This document shows, piece after piece, positions 29,731 to 44,172 of a stretch of 52,950 bases of DNA. Made by a program: the position numbers and the translations under genes. The notes under the pieces were generated by a model, which worked only from the letters and a program-made list of their open reading frames with translations, ran no database searches and was not told the DNA's origin. Origin of the DNA: an uncultured bacterium (GTDB lineage: Bacteria; Bacillota; Clostridia; Oscillospirales; Oscillospiraceae); assembly GCA_947383145.1 (NCBI GenBank), contig CANDCH010000014.1, positions 1 to 52,950 of the forward strand. The letters are read 5' to 3'. Within the stretch, counting starts at the first letter, position 1. Each line of letters begins with the position of its first letter.

Positions 29731-31959
29731 TTACTCGTCGTCGGTTCCGAAGAACTCGCCCAGGATCTCGTCGCAGTTCATGGCGGGGTCCTGATCGTCC
29801 AGGCCCACCAGAGCGGCCAGCTCGGGCATCTCAATGCCCTTGAACTTGGCGTAGCGGGCCAGGAACAGCTTGACCTGCTCCACGGTCACCAGCTCGTCGG
29901 GGAGGAACTCGGTCTCGGACACGCCCCAGGCGATGTCGTTGGCCTGACCCCAGCCCACGGCGGGGGCGAACTCGTGGTCGGCGGGCACGTCCGTGAAGGT
30001 GGGCATGCCGGCCTCAGGGGAGCCCGCGTCGCGGTACAGGAAGTCCACGAACTCGGCGCGGGTCACGGGGCCGGCCAGAGGCACGGCCGCGTCGTCCAGC
30101 TCCACCTCGTCGCCGCCGTCCTCAGCGCCGCCGCCCAGGGGGATGTCGGGGTCGTCGATCTCGGTATCGCCGCCGGTGCCGGGCAGGGCGGGGATGGCCT
30201 CGGAATCCATATAGCCGCAGCTCTCGCAGGTGTGGACCCGCTCGCCAGCCACGCCCACCTGGGCAGGCCGGATGACAGCCCACTCACCAAAGTCGTGATT
30301 CACGGTCACGTCCATGTTGCCACAGCCGGGGAAGGTGCACATATGGGCGTGGCCATTGTTGCTGGGATAGTAGTCCTCGCTCCAATAGTCATCGCAATCA
30401 TGGATGGCATCGGCGTCAGTGGTGGTCTGCGTGTAGCCGCAGTCCCCGCAGACGCGGCTCCAGTTCTGCTCAGACTCATTGTAGCTCCAAGCGCCAAACG
30501 TGTGGTTGCCGGTGGCGTACTGCTGCTTGCAGTCGGTGCAGAACATGCCGTGAATGGCGTCGTTAACCTCCTGCCACTCATCAGTTTTGCCAGTGTGGTT
30601 GCTCGCGTCGACAGGAATTACCAGGTCGTCAGCGGTGACTTCCTTGGTGCCCTTAAACAGCTTGCTGCACACGGTGCAAGTCCAGTGGGCCGCAGTACCA
30701 GTCTTAGTGCAGGTGGCGGGCACTTCAGCGATCACGCTCGCAGTGTGGGGCTTCATGGGCACCTCACGGACCTCAAACGCCTTGCACTCATCATAGCGGG
30801 AGCACCGATAGACAGCCGCGCCTTTTTCAGTGCAGGTGGCGGGCTTATTGTCGGCATGAGTACCCCAGGATACACTGTAGTCATGGCCCAGGGCGAGGCT
30901 TTTCACTTCGCTCCTCACAAAGTCACAATCCGCACAGTTCCACACGATAACCTCCGGCAGGGTGCAGGTAGCGGCATGAGACTTTTCCTCGTCCTTCACC
31001 ATATTTTTGTGCTCACAATCGGTCTTGATGCTGGGGTCAGAGTCGCCGCAGCGGGTGCAAGTGCCGTTCACATAGTTGTGGCCCAGAGCGTCGATGGTCT
31101 GGCTCTGCCTGAGGCCGCACACCGTGCAGGAACGGGTCTCCTTACCCTCAGTAAGGCACTTAGCCTCAATCTCAACCTTCCAATCGCTCATCTTGTGAGC
31201 CTCAGGCTCACTAGTGGCAGTACAGTTGGCGCACTGGCGGGCATGGCTGCTGGTGCCAGCCTGGACATAATTGCCAGTGAAGCTGTGGCCGGTTTGCGGG
31301 AGGATCGTAGTGCTGACCGTCTTGCCGCAGTCATTGCACTTGACGGTCTCGGAACCATCCGTGGTGCAGGTGGCGGGAACGGTCACGGTCTCAGTGTTGA
31401 CGTGGTTGTTGGGCGCAAGCGTACCCTTCGGGTCTACCTTATTGCACACACACTTACCGGGAGTTTTGCAGGTCGCGCCATTGTAATGGTGATCGCGGAG
31501 CGGCTCCTCATACCCACACTTAGTACATGTCGCAGTATGATACAGCCCAAACCTATTTTCAGTATACGTCATCTGATGGCTATGCGTCTGGGCAAGCACT
31601 TCTTTCTCAGCACCGCACTTCGTACACCTGTGGATATCAGTATGCGAAACTTGGCAGTTTATCTCTTCCCATTTACAATGGTCGTACACCCAATTGTGAT
31701 TGCAAGACTTCGCCGCCGCAGGAGCCGCCGCCAGCGGGGTTTGAGCGGTCTCCACCAGCTCGACTTCCTCAGGCTCATCGGCCTCGTCCCCGGTCTCGGT
31801 CTCGGTGGCCTCGGTCTTGTCCTCGGTCTCAACAACCTCGGGCTCGGTAGTCTCGGGCGCGTCCTCCGCGAACGCGGCGGTGGACAGCATGCCAACGCAC
31901 ATCATCAGGGCCAGAACCAGCGCCAGGGCGCGCTTGCCAACGTTTTTCAAATACATCAT
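29731..31959 (-). CDS. Secreted Cys/His-repeat surface protein with S-layer-homology-like C-terminus
   Basis: A 742-residue exported protein. A signal peptide lies at residues ~5-32 (RALALVLALMMCVGMLSTAA ending near AFA). Residues ~33-75 are a Glu/Thr-rich acidic linker. Residues ~85-590 hold about ten or more divergent Cys-x2-Cys repeats, often with flanking His (for example VPATCTTDGSETVKCNDCGK, HTCESCGYMDSEAI), a pattern found in large gut Firmicute surface proteins and likely to bind zinc or form disulfides. The last ~100 residues (VTRAEFVDFLYRDAGSP, then TFTDVPADHEFAPAVGWGQA) resemble S-layer-homology modules that bind the wall. Function unknown; adhesion is a guess. Its leader carries three c-di-GMP-I aptamers, so expression is probably set by c-di-GMP. 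Confidence 0.85.
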   Translation of the reverse strand: MMYLKNVGKRALALVLALMMCVGMLSTAAFAEDAPETTEPEVVETEDKTEATETETGDEADEPEEVELVETAQTPLAAAPAAAKSCNHNWVYDHCKWEEINCQVSHTDIHRCTKCGAEKEVLAQTHSHQMTYTENRFGLYHTATCTKCGYEEPLRDHHYNGATCKTPGKCVCNKVDPKGTLAPNNHVNTETVTVPATCTTDGSETVKCNDCGKTVSTTILPQTGHSFTGNYVQAGTSSHARQCANCTATSEPEAHKMSDWKVEIEAKCLTEGKETRSCTVCGLRQSQTIDALGHNYVNGTCTRCGDSDPSIKTDCEHKNMVKDEEKSHAATCTLPEVIVWNCADCDFVRSEVKSLALGHDYSVSWGTHADNKPATCTEKGAAVYRCSRYDECKAFEVREVPMKPHTASVIAEVPATCTKTGTAAHWTCTVCSKLFKGTKEVTADDLVIPVDASNHTGKTDEWQEVNDAIHGMFCTDCKQQYATGNHTFGAWSYNESEQNWSRVCGDCGYTQTTTDADAIHDCDDYWSEDYYPSNNGHAHMCTFPGCGNMDVTVNHDFGEWAVIRPAQVGVAGERVHTCESCGYMDSEAIPALPGTGGDTEIDDPDIPLGGGAEDGGDEVELDDAAVPLAGPVTRAEFVDFLYRDAGSPEAGMPTFTDVPADHEFAPAVGWGQANDIAWGVSETEFLPDELVTVEQVKLFLARYAKFKGIEMPELAALVGLDDQDPAMNCDEILGEFFGTDDE

Positions 31960-32004
31960 TTTTTATTCGTCCCTTCTTTGCTGAAAATTACGGATGCAAA
32001 GTAA

Positions 32005-32158
32005 TCCGGCGGCTGGGCTGCCATAGGTCCGGCTGAGGCCGTTTCTCCGAAACGGCCTCAGGGGTATACCCCTGACCTTACTTTGTTTCCTCCGCTTGGG
32101 TCTCCGGGCCGTTAGGCCCCTGGCTTTGCGTCCCGCCGTTTCCGGCGGTTTGCCATGA
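32005..32158 (-). ncRNA. Cyclic di-GMP-I (GEMM-I) riboswitch, copy 3 (gene-proximal)
   Basis: Read on the minus strand: GGCAAACC (32147-32154), a P2 helix capped by GAAA, then GGGACGCAAAGCC and GGGGCCTAA, and at the 3' end ATGGCAGCCCAGCC before the closing helix. These are the conserved parts of the Vc2-type aptamer. The position I equate with Vc2 G20 is G, as for c-di-GMP binding. The P3 arm is enlarged by two extra hairpins (~32030-32085). It ends ~45 nt before the surface-protein start, so it could control the ribosome-binding site directly. Confidence 0.88.
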
Positions 32159-32160
32159 TC

Positions 32161-32283
32161 CAGCAGCCGGGCTGACTTAGCATCCTCACGGGGGTTGGGG
32201 TTTGCATCCCCATTGCCTCCTTTGTCATGAGAACGCCTTAGTTCCCATAGCTTTGCGTCCCGCGGTTTCCCGCGGTTTGCCTT
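32161..32283 (-). ncRNA. Cyclic di-GMP-I (GEMM-I) riboswitch, copy 2
   Basis: Minus strand: AAGGCAAACC, GCGG-GAAA-CCGC as P2 with the tetraloop, GGGACGCAAAGC, GGGAACTAAG, a P3 arm, and the 3' AGTCAGCCCGGCTGC segment. All aptamer landmarks occur in the same order and spacing as in copy 3. It lies immediately upstream of copy 3 with almost no spacer. Confidence 0.86.
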
Positions 32284-32288
32284 TTTTT

Positions 32289-32390
32289 CAGCAACCGGGC
32301 GAACTTATCGCCGCCGCGCCGGAGCGCGGCTTCGACTTAGTCCCCATGGCTTTGCGTCCCACGGTTTCCCGTGGTTTGCCAAAATGCGCC
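32289..32390 (-). ncRNA. Cyclic di-GMP-I (GEMM-I) riboswitch, copy 1 (promoter-proximal)
   Basis: Minus strand: TTGGCAAACC, ACGG-GAAA-CCGT as P2, GGGACGCAAAGCC, GGGGACTAAG, a compact GC-rich P3, and AGTTCGCCCGGTTGC at the 3' end. It is the shortest and closest to the standard size. A run of seven A separates it from copy 2. Confidence 0.86.
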
Positions 32391-32508
32391 CTGCGTGTCA
32401 CCCTGCCGCCCCCGGCGCGTGGTCCGGCGGCAGGATGCCCCCAGGGCGGGACCGCCTCTCTCATGCGGCTCCCTCCCCTCTCGCGGGCGTCTCCGCCCGC
32501 ACTGCTCC
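32391..32508 (-). other. 5' leader segment upstream of the riboswitch array
   Basis: This part of the leader, from the likely transcription start near 32508 to copy 1, is GC-rich with several possible hairpins (for example GCGGGCGG...CGCCCGC near 32485-32500). No gene or known RNA motif is recognised. Confidence 0.35.
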
Positions 32509-43248: not shown

Positions 43249-44172
43249 TCAATCCTCCCGCCACTGCTCTGTGTTGTGGTCGGACCACACCACCCGGTTG
43301 CGGCCCAGCCGTTTGGCGTCGTACAGCATGGCGTCCGCCGACTTCAGATAGGTCTCCAGCTGCTCCCCCAGCTTGGGCACCACGGTGACGCCGCCGATGC
43401 TCACCGTCACCCACTGGCTCACCGGCGAGCTGTGGGGGATATGCAGATCCTCCACCGCCTGCCGGATGGTCTTCATGAACTCGTAGGACGGGCGGGCCTC
43501 GCTCCCCACAAACACCGCCACGAACTCCTCCCCGCCGTACCGGGCGAAGAGGTCGGTGGCCCGCCAGAAGAAGGAGGAGACCTTCTGGGCCACGGTGGAA
43601 ATCACCTTGTCCCCCGCCGGGTGGCCAAAGGTGTCGTTGTACAGCTTGAATTTGTCGATGTCAAACATGCAGATGGTAAAGGGCAGGCCGAACCGCACCG
43701 CCTCCTGCCAGCGGGCCGCGCTCTCGCTCTCATACCGCCGCCGGTTGGCCACGCCGGTCAGCTCGTCCACCATGGCCTGCTCCCGGTACTGCATCTGATA
43801 GCGGAACAGCTGAATGTGGGTGTTCACCCGGGCCCGGATAATCACCGGGCTGAAGGGCTTGGTCACATAGTCCACCGCCCCAAGCAGCAGTCCCCGTTCC
43901 TCGTACTGAATGTCCGCCAGGCTGGTGAGCAGGATCACCGGGATATGCTTGGTCAGCACCGTGGCCTTCAGCTCCCGGAGCAGCATAAAGCCGTCCATCC
44001 CCGGCATGACCACATCCAGAAGGATCAGGGAGAAGCCCCCCTCCTTGGCGGCGCTCAGCCCCTCCTCCGCCGTGTGGCACACAGCCAATTCATAGTCGTC
44101 CTTTAAAATCGAGCACAGGAACTCGGTCTGAACCGCACTGTCGTCGATCACCAATATTTTGTCCTTATCCAT
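43249..44172 (-). CDS. Response regulator diguanylate cyclase (REC-GGDEF)
   Basis: A 307-residue protein. Residues 1-~120 are a receiver domain with phospho-acceptor D53 (LLDVVMPG), acidic D10/D11, T83 and K105. Residues ~132-300 are a GGDEF domain with the active motif GGEEF (213-217) and an RxxD inhibitory I-site (RATD, 204-207) five residues before it, so the enzyme should be active and product-inhibited. It makes c-di-GMP from two GTP. No adjacent histidine kinase exists; the PAS protein upstream has no kinase domain. The start codon at 44172 is preceded only by weak purine stretches. It likely feeds the riboswitches at ~32 kb, but this is inference. Confidence 0.92.
   Translation of the reverse strand: MDKDKILVIDDSAVQTEFLCSILKDDYELAVCHTAEEGLSAAKEGGFSLILLDVVMPGMDGFMLLRELKATVLTKHIPVILLTSLADIQYEERGLLLGAVDYVTKPFSPVIIRARVNTHIQLFRYQMQYREQAMVDELTGVANRRRYESESAARWQEAVRFGLPFTICMFDIDKFKLYNDTFGHPAGDKVISTVAQKVSSFFWRATDLFARYGGEEFVAVFVGSEARPSYEFMKTIRQAVEDLHIPHSSPVSQWVTVSIGGVTVVPKLGEQLETYLKSADAMLYDAKRLGRNRVVWSDHNTEQWRED

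Follow-up and report, generated by a model that had tools for sequence, protein, structure and literature searches.

How three c-di-GMP-I riboswitch aptamers, set one behind the other in a single leader, can act upon one gene is the question raised by this locus. They lie on the minus strand of the window, as we call the whole 52,950-nucleotide stretch that was analysed, within the genome (G000; 2.48 Mb in 58 contigs, 85% complete) of an uncultured member of the Oscillospiraceae. An earlier note, made from the letters of the window, had recognised the three aptamers and the secreted protein gene behind them, and had raised the option of a separate step under each aptamer. The leader holds three features absent from that note: a conserved leader ORF, a pseudoknotted hairpin (P0) and a predicted pseudoknot that would serve as expression platform. 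We consider it probable that the locus is a riboswitch by which c-di-GMP controls translation, with several abutting aptamers working on one shared platform and a leader ribosome pausing at P0.

Table 1. Features of the riboswitch leader and its gene, in the order in which the transcript is read.
Feature	Coordinates	Strand	Basis
Shine-Dalgarno GGAGG of leader ORF	32472–32476	−	pattern match 32441–32476
Leader ORF, 58 aa, MREAVPPW...	32288–32464	−	open frame; codons 1–8 identical in ortholog L037
Pro-Pro-Trp codons CCG CCC TGG	32441–32449	−	sequence and pattern match
P0 hairpin: stem 32434–32426 with 32410–32402, loop 32425–32411	32402–32434	−	sequence; helix covariation
P0 loop pseudoknot: GCGCC 32418–32414 with GGCGC 32390–32386	32386–32418	−	sequence; swap test
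c-di-GMP-I aptamer 1	32287–32390	−	RF01051, 62.2 bits, gathering scan of whole window
c-di-GMP-I aptamer 2, enlarged P3 arm	32159–32291	−	RF01051, 65.5 bits, focused and own-genome search
c-di-GMP-I aptamer 3, enlarged P3 arm with extra hairpins	32005–32164	−	RF01051, 57.9 bits
Platform stem S1: CGGAT 32008–32004 with ATCCG 31995–31991	31991–32008	−	platform count; terminator-like flag
Platform stem S2, predicted pseudoknot with S1 loop: CTTTGC 32001–31996 with GCAAAG 31981–31976	31976–32001	−	
Shine-Dalgarno-like AAGGG of regulated gene	31971–31975	−	sequence
Regulated gene, 742-aa protein, signal-peptide-like N-terminus, C-terminal SLH-like stretch	29731–31959	−	

The three aptamers are beyond doubt as matches to RF01051. 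All are full length (model positions 1–87) and stand above the gathering score of 35, with E-values of 7.6e-10 and 8.3e-9 over the whole window and of 3.6e-13 over the 161 bases searched, and adjacent matches share 5 and 6 nt. The gathering scan of the whole window returned the outer two copies only, and the middle copy came from the focused scan and the search of its own genome. Its absence from the first scan is likely due to the retention of the best among overlapping matches of the same clan, together with faster filters; under the stricter filters of the genus search it scores 56.6 bits. Every copy carries GGCAAACC, a GAAA-capped P2 and GACGCAAAG, just as the earlier note had read them. 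The ligand-contacting G, A and C are present in all three, by sequence and by the Rfam alignments, and each copy would be expected to bind the ligand. We take these residues to be G20, A47 and C92 of Vc2, mapped through the Rfam alignment. From the ligand-site C of one copy to the ligand-site G of the next there are 10 and 9 nt. The P3 arm of copy 3 is enlarged and folds with extra hairpins (z −3.1), also as first described, and that of copy 2 proves to be enlarged too. The ortholog of the array (L037, 90.5% identity over 693 nt) retains the P3 arm of copy 3; one of its hairpins shows a paired change from T-A to C-G, and one pair is broken. Within the enlarged P3 of aptamer 2 (32228–32112, minus strand) we also noted AAAGGAGG followed by ATGs, inside a 38-aa open frame. 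In the one ortholog with which this second leader-like Shine-Dalgarno/ATG was compared, L037, a 1-nt deletion takes away the first ATG of the frame. A sigma-70 promoter scan gave no match.

The platform follows the last aptamer at once, with S1 beginning one nucleotide after its ligand-site C. It is predicted to be an H-type pseudoknot of four to five pairs in S1 and six in S2, whose geometry fits, and the 3' strand of S2 is directly 5' of the Shine-Dalgarno-like sequence of the regulated gene. All three arrays of the genome end alike, as CCGGAT(T)ACTTTGC(A/G)TCCG...GCAAAG and then a Shine-Dalgarno-like sequence. Among genus clusters of at least two aptamers, a set chosen independently of the platform, 40 of 46 carry it. 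The six exceptions include L033, which meets a contig end, the mis-anchored window ortholog L037, in which the platform is present, and L049, in which S2 is the paired variant TGCTG/CAGCA; the others are three widely spaced pairs (L035, L041 and L068). The platform is also found in four of the 16 single-hit clusters, and among the remaining 12, L016 and L029 are followed closely by another aptamer. Platform rows of the genus begin with CCGGA in 42 of 44 cases; L063 has CCGGG, and L028 has CCAGA with a matching TCTG (paired variant CAGA/TCTG). S2 is nearly invariant, and its covariation rests on few variants, that of L049 and the G-U changes in L032 and L034. As controls we took 40 other RF01051 hits of the family, of which 37 were usable; three were dropped for want of a core match, and one of these, L238, is part of an array (L194, L247) that has both leader and platform. 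The platform occurs in none of the 37. One of them has a close neighbour, one shows Pro-Pro in frame behind a Shine-Dalgarno sequence and start, and in 25 five T's occur within 130 nt. Among 134 arrays with platform, two show a run of six T's in the 70 nt past the last ligand-site C. Folded alone, the platform region is unstable (z +1.1), by a single-strand fold without pseudoknots that is uninformative for the pseudoknot. The terminator scan flagged the window's S1 with its TAATTTT tail as terminator-like, so a transcriptional role is possible as well; control at translation is the reading that we infer.

That the leader precedes a secreted protein gene, as the earlier note held, agrees with the N-terminus of the 742-aa protein. 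Its C-terminal match to the S-layer-homology domain reaches 17.7 bits, below the Pfam cut-off of 20.8. The genome holds eight RF01051 matches, all within arrays: the window triple, a second triple (C20) and a pair (C25). All three arrays precede proteins with a signal-peptide-like start, those 3' of the other two matching SLH (30.6 bits) and FctA (32.8 bits). By a simple rule, such an N-terminus is seen in 113 of the 128 downstream proteins, and the best reading is that the regulated proteins are exported and partly of SLH type. Four GGDEF domains are encoded in the genome, one of them inside the window. The latter belongs to a protein at 43249–44172 (minus strand) with a GGEEF motif (GGDEF match 43294–43776, 141.3 bits), whose N-terminus resembles, by eye, a response-regulator receiver; lying about 11 kb from the array, it is a candidate c-di-GMP synthase.

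If the platform acts as its position suggests, ligand occupancy of the array would set the pseudoknot beside the Shine-Dalgarno sequence, and ribosome loading on the surface-protein gene would be allowed or not. As to direction, we lean slightly, and with low confidence, toward a switch that is OFF when c-di-GMP is high, for S1 follows the last aptamer without a gap and no evident P1 competes with it. Ligand binding could then stack on the platform pseudoknot and stabilise it. The opposite direction, in which binding of c-di-GMP would open the platform pseudoknot and expose the ribosome-binding site, has in our estimate not quite an even chance. Surface adhesins are commonly raised by c-di-GMP, a point in favour of such an ON switch. 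The triple tested in Bacillus thuringiensis is also an ON switch (PMC4759541). In the last aptamer, a P1 that could compete with S1 is not clear: the flanks pair at positions 1–4 in 56, 74, 66 and 28 of 104 cases, a count that lacks a proper control as the 3' bases were fixed by the search pattern. P1 pairing was not above shuffles either in the arrays or in the 37 single family aptamers. Its absence from arrays says little for this reason, and P1 loss as a trait specific to arrays was rejected.

Arrays of this kind are frequent among relatives. RF01051 matches occur in 17 of 42 genus genomes, our own included, and number 137, three of them under the gathering score. Joined at less than 400 nt, they form 62 clusters: 16 single, 23 double, 17 triple and 6 quadruple. 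Of the 46 clusters with at least two aptamers, 41 have all their gaps at 18 nt or less, and these close doubles to quadruples amount to 41 of the 62 clusters. The view that three in a row are rare did not survive these counts, nor the triples already in print (PMC4759541, PMC9481103, PMC12452182, as far as their accessible parts report them). Across the family, RF01051 was found in 71 of 250 genomes. One of these, G110, has on contig C12 five abutting aptamers (65.2, 66.3, 64.6, 66.8 and 63.3 bits) with the same platform downstream; its five-aptamer arrays are without a clear Pro-Pro ORF. L188 is an array similar to this one (L187), and an unusual core with GGTAAACC and GGCACAAAG marks the second copy. 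Searching with the platform pattern on its own gave at least 117 stretches, and the 80 listed come from Oscillospiraceae, Oscillibacter, other Clostridia, Lachnospiraceae and others. No recognisable core lies within 260 nt of six of the platform matches in those 80 loci, where a contig ends, a P3 arm is very long or the core is degenerate. Chosen by platform, these stretches were left out of the platform covariation. Once identical arrays were removed, 134 arrays with platform were retained. Among 158 junctions between aptamers, 138 measure 2–12 nt, 10 measure 20–32 nt and 10 were not placed within the 40 nt examined. Aptamer counts made by regular expression miss degenerate copies (four for five in L187, one for two in L194) and added a false aptamer in L009. 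Very long P3 insertions recur, by eye, in array aptamers of L116, L134, L148 and L188.

Do all copies matter? The last aptamer might alone be coupled to the platform, the upstream copies being redundant, titrating c-di-GMP or buffering the fold. Its direct junction with S1 would suit this reading, as would the single RF01051 hits with the same platform (L026 and L061) and the first aptamers of L020 and L027, which have lost the conserved A, and of L028, which has lost the C. We nevertheless hold it unlikely. Over the 110 aptamers of the 41 close genus arrays, the ligand-site residues are kept in 110 (G), 106 (A) and 108 (C), and first, middle and last copies keep them about equally well; of the six rows flagged, three are apparently mis-anchored. 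Arrays of two to five aptamers, moreover, recur across several genera. The first aptamers of the quadruples L020 and L034 resemble the c-di-GMP-I-GGC variant RF03167, at 35.6 and 36.3 bits against a cut-off of 59, and an altered ligand or decay is possible for the first aptamers of L020, L034 and L027.

A pseudo-cooperative tandem of three independent riboswitches, each with a checkpoint of its own, is a further reading, as proposed for the triple-tandem c-di-GMP-I riboswitch Bc3-5 of B. thuringiensis, for which a digital response was demonstrated (PMC4759541). The window array resembles Bc3-5 in having three class-I aptamers, each complete, in one leader, and the c-di-GMP-I tandems in print are assigned to this pseudo-cooperative class (PMC9481103, PMC12452182). 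The layouts differ. In the accessible part of PMC4759541 each unit of Bc3-5 has its own predicted terminator, and the mutations G11, G171 and G331 put the copies 160 nt apart; in the window the copies abut, share one common platform and follow a leader ORF. The digital response of Bc3-5 is for this reason, the separate predicted terminators, not directly transferable. Linkers of 9–10 nt fall short of the 20 nt commonly needed for a terminator (PMC12452182, in the part available). On the minus strand the terminator scan gave no terminator-like site between the aptamers, and among 110 arrays of at least two aptamers five have six T's in a row between the first aptamer and the platform. With all aptamers less than 20 nt apart and a platform only 3' of the last copy, rather than after each, separate checkpoints are improbable, and the same observations tell against the earlier suggestion of separate steps. 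Such a layout speaks for a single sensor and a single decision, taken at the platform, with copies that may bind cooperatively.

The leader ORF adds a second layer to this arrangement. Its stop codon TGA (32290–32288) follows immediately on the ligand-site C (32291) of aptamer 1, and P0 starts 15 nt from the start of the first Pro codon, 9 nt past the end of the second. Relatives keep the order of Shine-Dalgarno sequence, start codon, a few codons and CCN CCN, mostly with TGG or GGN next; Glu-Pro, Lys-Pro or Thr-Pro replaces Pro-Pro in some leaders. In a frame-blind count, 71 of 95 arrays fell in frame 0, 17 in frame 1 and 7 in frame 2, and 39 of the 134 lacked such a pattern. A structure-anchored test, which seeks a hairpin with a loop pseudoknot ending no more than 8 nt from an aptamer-like start, found the hairpin in 93 of the 134 arrays (76 once similar ones were removed), some of the 93 evidently by chance, as in L009, where it falls in a coding region. 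CC.CC stands 10–23 nt 5' of the hairpin in 49 of those 76, and at 15 nt in 31, the choice of the occurrence nearest offset 15 favouring that offset. A Shine-Dalgarno sequence and start precede Pro-Pro in 47 of 48 non-redundant elements, against a mean of 10.7 and a maximum of 19 in 300 letter shuffles. Start and Pro-Pro are in frame in 42 of these 47 (mean 3.5, maximum 8 in letter shuffles), and the binomial figure for frame overstates significance since the leaders are kin by descent. These statistics of frame and start indicate that the leader ORF is probably translated. That the Shine-Dalgarno/start/Pro-Pro stretch is instead an untranslated RNA structure element is very improbable: the GC-rich context and the nearly fixed distance of the Pro codons from P0 (9 nt in 40 of 55) would fit it, whereas the spacing from start to Pro-Pro steps by whole codons between lineages (9, 12, 15, 18 and 30 nt), the third bases of the two Pro codons differ between leaders (31 compared), and the frame and Shine-Dalgarno counts speak for a coding role.

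Leader stops are widely scattered, from before P0 to past aptamer 1, with two frames open to the 900-nt limit; the conserved part would thus be the start and Pro-Pro-X. As a stand-alone signature, Shine-Dalgarno/ATG/Pro-Pro-Trp proved too weak (three of its ten genome matches are arrays), and as a known Rfam family the leader gave no relevant match, a single chance match reaching 14.3 bits. In L011, L012 and L009 two successive hairpins precede the leader Shine-Dalgarno sequence, the first a nearly perfect palindrome around CCATGG. The stems of both vary between these genus loci and remain paired, as judged by eye.

P0 and its loop pseudoknot join the leader ORF to the array, the pseudoknot ending 6 nt 5' of the ligand-site G (32379) of aptamer 1. 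In a MAFFT alignment (A1) of 30 of 32 leaders, L108 and L141 being left out, the nine-pair helix scores 0.299 for covariation, higher than any of 500 shuffles and any of the six slides (at most 0.188). Six pairs show double-sided changes, a number equalled by one slide (−3), and one pair is invariant; the 92.9% of pairs formed is an inflated figure, as the hairpins were chosen for best pairing. The 3' strand of the pseudoknot is misaligned by up to two columns in A1, and a swap test was used in its place. Loop and aptamer-side strand pair with a score of 7.22, against 6.03 with swapped tails (maximum of 60: 6.62; 55 non-redundant elements), and the pairs include GCGCC/GGCGC, GCGTC/GACGC, GCGTTC/GAACGC and GTACC/GGTAC. 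P0 with its loop pseudoknot lies directly 5' of the first core in 91 of 131 arrays, against 11–22 in ten letter shuffles.

A covariance model of the leader links the modules further. In the genus it matches 23 times, in 9 of 42 genomes; by coordinates every match abuts one to RF01051, and at least 10 of the 23 are training sequences of the model. Genus genomes without RF01051 gave no match, an absence that is weak evidence as 122 candidates per genome were scored there and 20 in the family. Four of the 250 family genomes (our own included), compared with 71 for RF01051, gave 11 matches, several again training sequences; all 11 have an aptamer core and the platform downstream. At E≤1 the own genome has two weak matches, one in C10 (28.9 bits), away from arrays, and one in C20 (27.5 bits), at the second triple. 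The model missed arrays, among them all those of G007, which visibly carry the leader.

The translational riboswitch that we favour would then work as follows. The leader ORF would be translated, and the ribosome would pause at Pro-Pro-Trp while its P site holds the second Pro codon. Counted from that codon, P0 starts at about the thirteenth base. This base lies near the point where mRNA enters the ribosome. The paused ribosome would accordingly stand with its entry near the foot of P0, whose pseudoknot 3' strand ends just before aptamer 1, and for this reason we expect it to gate or time the folding of the array. Among three motifs, Pro-Pro-Trp depended most on EF-P in an efp mutant of B. subtilis (PMC5885033), and without EF-P, Pro-Pro-Gly pauses with Pro in the P site (PMC4140641), in the parts of these papers available. 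EF-P is encoded in the genome, so the pause may be short. A bolder form of the proposal joins the modules into one machine, in which a ribosome parked by Pro-Pro-X at a pseudoknot, one to five abutting aptamers and one pseudoknot platform act together. Ligand-bound aptamers and both pseudoknots would stack into one rod, and c-di-GMP and the paused ribosome, by way of EF-P activity or translation rate, would jointly set surface-protein output as by a coincidence detector. This we put forward tentatively, as conceivable and rather doubtful.

Parts of this design have precedents. Triplets as such are published: 347 c-di-GMP-I doublets and 12 triplets were counted in PMC9481103, which places c-di-GMP-I under multiple expression platforms, and PMC12452182 describes doubles and triples before yebA. 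These tandems share with the window the repetition of one aptamer class, and some of the doublets may be of the abutting kind; no quadruple or quintuple c-di-GMP-I was noticed in the accessible parts of either survey. The tandem glycine riboswitch likewise sets adjacent like aptamers on one platform (PMC9481103, PMC12452182). It differs in ligand class and in having typically two aptamers, and no Pro-Pro leader module is described for it in the text available. The mgtL/mgtA leader of Salmonella shares a proline-rich leader ORF in a riboswitch leader (PMC5021804); it is linked to Mg2+/proline and Rho, with no mention of c-di-GMP aptamers in the accessible part of that paper. Among open-licence papers we recognised none in which a c-di-GMP riboswitch is combined with a leader peptide or Pro-Pro leader, and no larger arrays, and did not find the machine of Pro-Pro leader, aptamer array and pseudoknot platform in print. 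What differs is the architecture, abutting aptamers with one shared 3' platform and a conserved leader.

If our reading is true, these bacteria possess a natural c-di-GMP sensor in which the number of aptamers varies from one to five on a similar chassis, and the effect of copy number on steepness could be tested in relatives. Sensing of c-di-GMP would be tied to translation of the leader ORF. Riboswitches with adjacent c-di-GMP-I aptamers would be added for the Bacillota, whereas the 2025 survey (PMC12452182, in the part available) found c-di-GMP enriched among terminator-separated tandems and adjacent aptamers enriched in the Pseudomonadota only. A number of genus genomes carry many such arrays ahead of exported proteins.
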